Positions 29,307 to 31,376 of a stretch of 64,000 nucleotides of DNA are shown piece after piece. The notes beneath the pieces were generated by a model. It was not told the origin of the DNA. It did not search any database and saw only the letters and a list, made by a program, of their open reading frames with translations. Both the position numbers and the translations under genes were made by a program. How positions within the stretch are numbered: position 1 is the stretch's first letter; every line of letters starts with the position of its first letter. Origin of the DNA: an uncultured Pelagibacteraceae bacterium (GTDB lineage: Bacteria; Pseudomonadota; Alphaproteobacteria; Pelagibacterales; Pelagibacteraceae); contig CACNYD010000001.1 in the NCBI GenBank assembly GCA_902624635.1, positions 178,766 to 242,765 of the forward strand, written 5' to 3'.

Positions 29307-29329
29307 ATATAAGTCTTTCAAACTTATAT
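29307..29329 (+). repeat. 8-bp inverted repeat just upstream of rpoD
   Basis: ATATAAGT (29307-29314) and its exact complement ACTTATAT (29322-29329) are separated by 7 nt. The second arm ends 4 nt before the rpoD GTG. In RNA this would form a hairpin covering the region where a ribosome binding site would be expected. It could also be a protein operator. The arms are AT-rich, so a chance occurrence is possible. Confidence 0.4.
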
Positions 29330-29333
29330 TGCT

Positions 29334-31160
29334 GTGGAAAGAATTATTACTAAATCATTTGCTAGGTTAATGGGTCGTGGAACCCATAGGGGATTTATAA
29401 CTTATGAAGAGTTAAGTAAATCCCTAGGAAAAAGAAATCTCTCAGATGAGAATCTGTCTCAAGCTTTTATTCATATTTTAGATGGTGGAATAGTTCTTGT
29501 TGAAAAGAAATCTGATTTTAAAGTATTAAGAAAAAAAGAAAATTCCTCTAAAGATGAAGGCAAAACTATTGAGAAAAGTGATGACCCAATAAGAATGTAC
29601 CTTAGAGAGATGGGGGGTGTTGAGTTACTTTCCAGAGAAGGTGAGATAGCAATTGCAAAAAGGATAGAAGCTGGAAAAGATGTTATGTTAATTGCTTTAT
29701 CACAAAGTCCTATTACCGCTCAGCAATTTTTTGATTGGGATGAAAAATTACAAAAAGATGAGATATTAGTGAGAGAAATTATAGATATTGATACAAATTA
29801 TATGGAGGATGAAAATACTGGACCAAGTGCGAAACAAAAAAATGCTGGTGAAGATGACAAAGAGGATAGTTCAAACGATGAGAGTGATGATGATTTCAAC
29901 CCAACACTTGCTGCCATGGAGTCAGAAATTAAGCCAAAAGTTTTAAAAACAGTTAATTTATTAACCAAAGAGTACCGAAAATTAATAAAATATCAAAAAG
30001 AGAAATTATATTGCGTTCTGAATTCTCAGACTTTTTCAACTTCTAAAGAAAAAGGTTATGAAAAGGTTGTTAATGAAATATTAGAGAATATAAAATCTTT
30101 ACAGTTATCTCCTTCAGTATTAGAGGAGCTAGTGCAAAAACATTATGTGGAAAATAAGAAAGTTATCTCTTTAGAGGGTAATCTCTTAAGATTAGCTATG
30201 GATCAAAAAATACCACGGAATGAGTTTATCAAATTTTATATAGGTAATGAGATTAATCCTAACTTAAAAAAGTTTTTAGATACTAACACTTTGTGGAAGC
30301 AATTTTTTAGTAAGAATAAAGAAGAATTTAAAAATATAAGAGAAAGATTGATTGAAATCAGTCACAAGCTTGGAATGTCAGTAACTGATTTTAAAAAGTT
30401 AGTGAGCAGAGTTCAAAAAGGTGAAAAGGAGTCGAGAATTGCTAAAAAAGAAATGGTGGAAGCTAATTTAAGACTAGTTATCTCAATAGCGAAAAAATAC
30501 ACAAACAGGGGACTTCAGTTTTTAGATTTAATTCAGGAGGGAAATATTGGTTTAATGAAAGCAGTTGATAAATTTGAATATCGAAGAGGTTATAAATTTT
30601 CAACTTATGCAACTTGGTGGATAAGACAAGCAATAACAAGGTCAATTGCCGATCAAGCAAGAACTATTAGAATTCCAGTCCATATGATTGAAACAATAAA
30701 TAAAATTGTAAGAACACAGAGACTTATACTTAGTGAGTTTGGTAGAGAAGCTACACCTGAAGAATTAGCAAAAAAACTTCGAATGCCTTTAGACAAGGTA
30801 AGAAAAGTTCTAAAGATTTCCAAAGAACCGGTATCGTTAGAAAAACCAGTTGGTGATGAAGAAGATAGTAGTTTGGGAGATTTTATTGAAGACACAAAAG
30901 CATTAGCGCCATTAGAACAAGCAATCAAATCAAATCTAGGCGAAGCAACAACAAAAATATTGTCTACTCTTACTCCTAGAGAGGAAAGAGTTTTAAGGAT
31001 GAGATTTGGAGTTGGAATGAATACTGATCATACATTAGAAGAAGTAGGTTTACAATTTTCAGTAACAAGAGAAAGAATTAGACAAATAGAAGCTAAAGCT
31101 CTGAGAAAGCTTAAACACCCGAGTAGATCAAAACAATTAAAAAGTTTCTTAGAAAGTTAA
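29334..31160 (+). CDS. rpoD: RNA polymerase primary sigma factor (sigma70/RpoD)
   Basis: This is the housekeeping sigma factor, 608 residues. It has a region 1.1-like start ([19 protein letters not shown]), the region 1.2 motif [23 protein letters not shown], a long non-conserved acidic region (about residues 160-190), region 2 ([35 protein letters not shown]), region 3 and region 4 ([35 protein letters not shown]). The start is a GTG; an in-frame stop lies 24 nt upstream, and no strong Shine-Dalgarno sequence is visible. It follows dnaG by 67 nt and is followed by tRNA-Val after 3 nt. Confidence 0.97.
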
Positions 31161-31163
31161 TCT

Positions 31164-31238
31164 GGGCCGTTAGCTCAATAGTAGAGTACTGCATTGACAT
31201 TGCAGGGGTAGTTGGAGCGTAACCAACACGGCCCACCA
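31164..31238 (+). tRNA. tRNA-Val (anticodon GAC) with atypical D- and T-loops
   Basis: A complete cloverleaf can be drawn. The acceptor stem pairs GGGCCGT with ACGGCCC, then discriminator A and an encoded CCA. The D-stem is GCTC/GAGT, the anticodon stem CTGCA/TGCAG with loop TTGACAT (anticodon GAC at 31196-31198), a 5-nt variable loop, and T-stem GTTGG/CCAAC. The T-loop reads AGCGTAA instead of the near-invariant TTCRANN, and the D-loop AATAGTA lacks the GG pair, so the normal D/T-loop contacts cannot form. All stems are well paired, so I favour a real but unusual tRNA over a pseudogene. It begins 3 nt after the rpoD stop and is probably processed from its mRNA. Confidence 0.8.
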
Positions 31239-31299: not shown

Positions 31300-31376
31300 G
31301 GGCCTGTAGCTCAGTTGGTTAGAGCAGTACACTCATAATGTATTGGTCCCAGGTTCGAGTCCTGGCGGGCCCACCA
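31300..31376 (+). tRNA. tRNA with CAT anticodon, probably tRNA-Ile2 (lysidine type)
   Basis: This is a standard cloverleaf of 77 nt with encoded CCA: acceptor GGGCCTG/CGGGCCC, D-stem GCTC/GAGC with GG in the loop, anticodon stem GTACA/TGTAT with loop CTCATAA (anticodon CAT at 31334-31336), and T-stem CCAGG/CCTGG with loop TTCGAGT. The paired 1-72 position (G-C) argues against initiator tRNA. The acceptor, D-arm and TTGGTC variable-loop region resemble bacterial tRNA-Ile2, whose C34 is converted to lysidine by TilS. Elongator tRNA-Met remains the alternative. It ends 8 nt from the convergent mlaC stop. Confidence 0.95.

Follow-up and report, generated by a model that had tools for sequence, protein, structure and literature searches.

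Introduction

Few bases of tRNA are as conserved as U55 and G18, which are taught to be near-invariant. Doyon, Zagryadskaya, Chen and Steinberg (2004, J Mol Biol) reportedly found, in E. coli suppressor tRNAs obtained by selection, that residue 18 is G if residue 55 is U, and A if residue 55 is G, a rule referred to as the 'specific purine trap'. In the canonical elbow of class I bacterial tRNAs, built on G18-psi55, G19-C56, and T54-A58, G18 is inserted between residues 57 and 58 and is paired to U55, the residue at which the T-loop turns (PMC4810234, PMC7912444), and the G19-C56 pair forms the flat elbow face on which other molecules stack (PMC4810234). Departures from the G18G19 and T-psi-C signatures are encountered in archaeal and bacterial tRNA-Pyl and in mammalian mitochondrial tRNAs (PMC7609411). 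Moreover, the abstract of Westhof et al. 2020 describes eukaryotic tRNA-Ala with R15/A48 together with A54/A58, a combination stated there to be unseen in bacterial or archaeal tRNAs (PMC7566577).

Here, a tRNA-Val(GAC) gene with A18 and G55 is described that is located in a window of 64,000 nucleotides (the whole stretch of DNA that was analysed) from an uncultured bacterium of the SAR11 family Pelagibacteraceae. Comparison with SAR11, phage, and other tRNA sequences indicates, with a probability of about 0.86, that this gene encodes a functional elongator tRNA-Val of which the elbow has an alternative, compensated inner contact.

Materials and Methods

tRNA genes in the window were called with ARAGORN and scored against the Rfam model RF00005 (cut-off 29 bits), and the rpoD frame of the window was used as tblastn query to recover the locus from other genomes. 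All tRNAs of the genome itself (a draft, 79% complete) and of the complete relative G012 were read, and the tRNA-Val(GAC) gene was compared in 61 related genomes. A pattern demanding both A18 and G55 was used to scan 297 Pelagibacterales genomes, with the reversed pattern as control, and the Val(GAC), Phe(GAA), and Thr(GGT) genes of 80 Pelagibacterales genomes were gathered by patterns neutral at positions 18 and 55. Outside the family, the scans covered a class-wide sample of Alphaproteobacteria, a phylum sample of 398 genomes, and 85,000 species, the last for A18/G55 in tRNAs with an anticodon that does not start in G. Phage counts comprise the non-seed class I tRNAs in the listed phage stretches, each of which was chosen for one swapped (A18-G55) tRNA. 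A second phage set was obtained through a DNA-polymerase-like protein; this query was taken from a swap-carrying phage, and the second set is likewise not neutral.

Results

The tRNA-Val(GAC) gene starts 3 bp downstream of the rpoD stop codon (31158-31160; Table 1), and rpoD and the tRNA are found on the same stretch in 28 other genomes. The gene matches RF00005 over its full length with 53.6 bits, and displays the 7/4/5/5 bp arms, 5-nt variable loop, and CCA of an elongator class I tRNA. A preliminary description of this DNA had noted that all four stems pair and that CCA is encoded, that the T-loop lacks T54, T55, and A58, and that the loops of the adjoining CAT tRNA are standard, all of which is borne out by the gene calls, the scores, and the sequence. 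The absence of GG from the D-loop was also correctly noted, but a single G, overlooked at the time, stays in the position-19 slot. As this G19 and C56 are both retained, the outer G19-C56 pair can form, and it is kept in diverged copies of the gene.

Table 1. Coordinates of the tRNA-Val(GAC) gene, its parts, and its neighbours within the window
Feature	Position	Strand	Evidence or remark
tRNA-Val(GAC) gene	31164..31238	+	ARAGORN and Rfam RF00005; CCA encoded
D-loop AATAGTA: A14, A15, T16, A18 (31180), G19 (31181), T20, A21	31177..31183	+	sequence; loop also present in stem-diverged copies
Anticodon GAC	31196..31198	+	ARAGORN
Variable loop GGGTA, A48 (31210) facing A15 (31178)	31206..31210	+	sequence
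T-loop AGCGTAA: A54 (31216), G55 (31217), C56 (31218), G57 (31219), T58 (31220), A59, A60	31216..31222	+	sequence
Acceptor stem of tRNA-Val(GAC)	31164-31170/31228-31234	+	
Adjoining tRNA, anticodon CAT, standard loops; for comparison only, without the variant	31300..31376	+	72.7 bits
rpoD (sigma-70) ORF, gives the tRNA locus its synteny	29313..31160	+	tblastn with the window frame

The cloverleaf, arm lengths, G19, C56, and purine 57 are thus shared with the canonical elbow, and the differences concern the inner contacts: 18/55 is A/G for G/U, 54/58 is A/T for T/A, 15/48 is A/A, and A60 occupies the place of a pyrimidine. The term 'missing elbow signature' that was initially applied to the gene overstates the case, as G19-C56 and R57 persist and the inner pair is replaced instead of lost. 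The suggested 'mitochondria-like' evolution finds no support in the stems, arm lengths, and covariance score, which are all ordinary. A tRNA without any contact between D-loop and T-loop, as in mitochondrial type II tRNAs with their variable loop sizes, would account for the standard bases being absent at positions 18, 54, 55, and 58, but is highly improbable given that the tRNA has kept G19, C56, R57, and loops of normal length, and that residues 18 and 55 covary (see below), for which there would be no need if the contact had been lost.

All 75 bases of the gene are unchanged in 20 other genomes of the genus, and two further genomes differ by one base. In more diverged Val copies the acceptor (GGGACTG/CAGTCCC versus GGGCCGT/ACGGCCC), anticodon (CCTCG/CGAGG versus CTGCA/TGCAG), and T (GTAGG/CCTAC versus GTTGG/CCAAC) stems are all altered by compensating pairs, with constant AATAGTA and AGCGTAA loops; a swapped Val with the alternative acceptor stem occurs in G066. 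The Val genes of G190 and G105, which belong to other genera, have D-loop AAAAGTA and T-loop AGCGTTA. Identity over 75 bases and matched stem changes around fixed loops show that the gene is under purifying selection and not decaying. Sequencing error was rejected on the same grounds, the same 75 bases being found across species and the stem changes being compensatory.

These observations contradict the earlier suggestion of a pseudogene. A decaying tRNA-Val(GAC), with its GUY codons served by Val(TAC), would fit the covariance score, which is lower than that of the CAT neighbour (53.6 versus 72.7 bits), the presence in G012 of a Val(TAC) that could decode all GUN codons, and the possible lack of Val(GAC) in some relatives; it is nevertheless very unlikely, since relaxed conservation and broken stems are not seen, the sequence being identical across species and the stem changes compensatory with fixed loops, CCA is retained, and swapped and canonical forms replace each other at one locus. 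The presence of a second, standard Val(GAC), proposed earlier as a check, was not observed in the draft genome itself (79% complete) or in the complete G012, of which the tRNA set holds one Val(GAC) and one Val(TAC).

Reading of all tRNAs of the two genomes revealed two more tRNAs with A18/G55: Thr(GGT) in the genome itself (D-loop AGGTAGTA, T-loop TGCAAGT) and Phe(GAA) in G012 (D-loop AGGAGTA, T-loop TGCGAAT). These swapped Phe and Thr tRNAs also retain T54-A58 and G15-C48 of the canonical elbow, and their residues 55-58 read GCGA and GCAA, respectively. The A18+G55 pattern was matched in 219 of the 297 Pelagibacterales genomes and the reversed control in none; at least one of the listed matches (in G263) is chance-like. 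The sister family f2 gave no A18+G55 match, and Val(GAC) and Phe(GAA) have the canonical form there.

Among the genes gathered with neutral patterns, 41 distinct Val, Phe, and Thr cores were distinguished, 18 with A18/G55, 23 with G18/T55, and none mixed. Every A18/G55 form of Val has A/T at 54/58 and A/A at 15/48, and the standard Val forms have T/A at 54/58 and G/T, T/G, or C/A at 15/48. Both elbow forms are found at syntenic Phe and Thr loci, and for Val beside rpoD; the neighbours of the Phe gene are shared by swapped and standard genomes, in most cases to within some 10 bp. An rpoD tree of 53 genomes requires a minimum of three switches for Val, four for Phe, and one for Thr. In G081, G082, and G209 a standard Val gene occupies the same site after rpoD, and these genomes are nested among those with the swapped form, by which a switch back to standard Val appears to have happened. 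As to the earlier question of canonical loops in relatives at this locus, nearly the whole family has the odd loops, but these three genomes, which belong to the genus itself, and the sister family f2 have canonical ones.

The Phe gene of G081 (genus g1) is identical to that of G247 (genus g9), and some of the switches look, from such sequence comparisons, like the exchange of a whole tRNA allele and not like a fresh double mutation; the switch counts are therefore not equal to numbers of independent mutations. The two identical tRNA-Phe alleles (L500 of G081 and L496 of G247) are at the same locus in different genera, which suggests either the exchange of short chromosomal tRNA alleles in SAR11 or misbinning.

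In a separate observation, Val(GAC) was unmatched by the search pattern in most g8 and all g9 SAR11 genomes examined, which suggests either loss of this tRNA, with all GUN codons read by Val(TAC), or a D-stem that falls outside the pattern. Since some family members appear to be without a recognisable Val(GAC), this tRNA may be dispensable.

In phage contigs (L369-L448) the A18-G55 combination is very frequent among the matches listed, in stretches selected for it, and occurs in tRNAs for many amino acids. The non-seed phage tRNAs among these matches comprise 49 with A18-G55, 271 with G18-T55, two with A18-T55, and none with G18-G55 (Fisher p about 5e-56 among the matches listed). Because every stretch was chosen for holding one swapped tRNA, this set is biased in frequency, but it is unbiased for the pairing rule. 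In the second phage set, 9 of 25 distinct tRNAs were swapped. The joint switching of 18 and 55, seen in phage tRNAs as well as in three tRNAs of SAR11, supports the compensated evolution on both sides that the preliminary description had offered as one possibility.

The rarer, Val-like T-loop with A54 and T58 is present in phages too, and in the tRNA-Met(CAT) of phage L366 both the D-loop and the T-loop are those of SAR11 Val(GAC). The latter, together with the identical Phe alleles in distant SAR11 genera, could mean that the swapped tRNAs do not go back to repeated compensated change but to a phage source, or to a single lineage that spread through duplication and change of anticodon. Such an origin is unlikely, as the best phage matches either cover part of the gene or, where they span most of it, reach no more than about 83% identity, the Val gene is matched by no phage record, and some swapped and standard Phe genes at one locus share their anticodon stem and variable loop. 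A phage source was on these grounds considered unsupported, and no close phage donor for the swapped SAR11 tRNAs was found in the phage records searched.

Several phage tRNAs (L364, L384, L399, L418, L419, L441, and L444) display a T-loop ATCGTNN, in which 54/58 is A/T and 55 is still T, mostly with GG in the D-loop. The 54/58 swap can therefore occur without the 18/55 swap.

Outside the family, about 380 genomes of the class-wide Alphaproteobacteria sample contained no tRNA-like A18+G55 match; the single match, in G615, was without tRNA stems as judged by eye and was discarded. In the phylum sample of 398 genomes, A18+G55 was found in the genome under study alone. The scan of 85,000 species yielded at least 119 stretches with A18/G55 tRNAs, by which an origin of the swap in SAR11 only was rejected. 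The matches listed include, in archaea, Thr of Bathyarchaeota and Ala of Micrarchaeota and others, and, in bacteria, Gly(TCC) of Streptomyces, frequently as tandem copies, tRNAs of Nostoc, Pro of Clostridia, and Thr of both Omnitrophota and Taylorbacteria. A18-G55 recurs independently in Streptomyces Gly, archaeal Thr and Ala, and bacterial Pro and Thr.

Discussion

The rule of the 'specific purine trap', by which base 55 sets purine 18, also holds in SAR11, with G18 accompanying U55 and A18 accompanying G55: the 41 SAR11 cores are unmixed, and the phage tRNAs among the matches listed are distributed 49/271/2/0. The E. coli tRNAs were selected, whereas those of SAR11 are natural and near-fixed in a bacterial group. 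The U54-A58 pair above the trapped purine is present in the swapped Phe and Thr, and is replaced by A54/T58 in Val. We know of no demonstration that A54/T58 is isosteric with T54-A58, which counts against the preferred reading of an elbow with a compensated inner contact.

Similar to the eukaryotic tRNA-Ala of Westhof et al. (PMC7566577), SAR11 Val displays a joint shift of 15/48 and 54/58 that involves A48 and A54. The tRNA-Ala retains A58, and the abstract describing it holds no change at 18/55, whereas SAR11 Val has A15/A48 with A54/T58; set against that abstract, SAR11 Val shows that 15/48 and 54/58 change together in a bacterium as well, here with U at 58. Unlike tRNA-Pyl and mammalian mitochondrial tRNAs, which lose G19-C56 or alter arm lengths (PMC7609411), the SAR11 tRNAs replace the inner contacts only.

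The inner pair is best regarded as replaced rather than lost, since 18 and 55 change as a unit while G19-C56 and R57 stay the same. In the proposed geometry A18 would be inserted between 57 and 58 and would contact G55 through a pair of A N6/N1 and G O6/N1, and G55 would take over the backbone turn usually made by U55, offering extra donors for the T-loop turn in a manner similar to the first G of GNRA loops. In Val, the interior of the elbow would be rebuilt as a set, with 54-58 changed from T-A to A-T and 15-48 to A/A along with 18/55. The corner would still form, and RNase P, the ribosome, and other partners would meet the flat face of G19-C56. Moreover, tRNA-Val(GAC) is predicted to be without the T54, pseudouridine 55, and Gm18 modifications, since with A54 and G55 neither T54 nor pseudouridine 55 can be made.

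The swap could also be an adaptive trait, in that the 18/55 exchange (in Val also that of 54/58) would put the tRNA out of reach of enzymes that modify the elbow, or of tRNA-cutting toxins and phage or host effectors by which the standard elbow is recognised. A54, G55, and A18 indeed leave no base on which T54, pseudouridine 55, or Gm18 could be formed, and such a benefit would explain the use of A18-G55 by phages, in which it is often encountered (including 9 of 25 tRNAs in the set fetched with the DNA-polymerase-like protein), but this explanation is unlikely, as most SAR11 tRNAs of the same cell have the standard elbow, and the phage set was chosen for carrying one swapped tRNA. In its widest form it is a similarly unlikely proposal: two interchangeable natural elbow types would exist, of which A18-G55 is selected in SAR11 and many phages, drops the pseudouridine 55 site (in Val also that of T54), and aids escape from elbow-reading enzymes.

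The 18/55 pairing rule is reportedly already known from the laboratory. In the openly accessible literature searched, there was no report of natural A18-G55 tRNAs, SAR11 and phages included; the use of three such tRNAs in SAR11, switching at the same locus, abundance in phages, and the version with A54/T58 and A15/A48 are likewise unreported in the papers searched. Under the preferred reading, a compensated inner contact, the swap shows a second natural way of building the tRNA corner. The natural exchange between two states in the most abundant bacteria of the ocean and in phages makes a clean case, by covariation, that conservation concerns the 18-55 contact as such, and swapped and standard tRNA-Phe at one locus are natural test objects for the need of pseudouridine 55, T54, and Gm18.

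The A18-G55 combination also affects genome annotation, as some Streptomyces tRNA-Gly genes that carry it escape ARAGORN. In Streptomyces and relatives (L170, L206, L213, L216, L237, and L245) these are extra tRNA-Gly(TCC) genes, present in two to three tandem copies per locus; by eye they have a bulged T-stem base, and many of them are missed by ARAGORN. They could have a role other than translation. Finally, the tRNA-Thr(TGT) of Bathyarchaeota (L176, L178, L181, L210, L221, and L242) combines A18 with the T-loop AGCAAGG (A54, G55, and A58), which is a third combination of inner elbow contacts.
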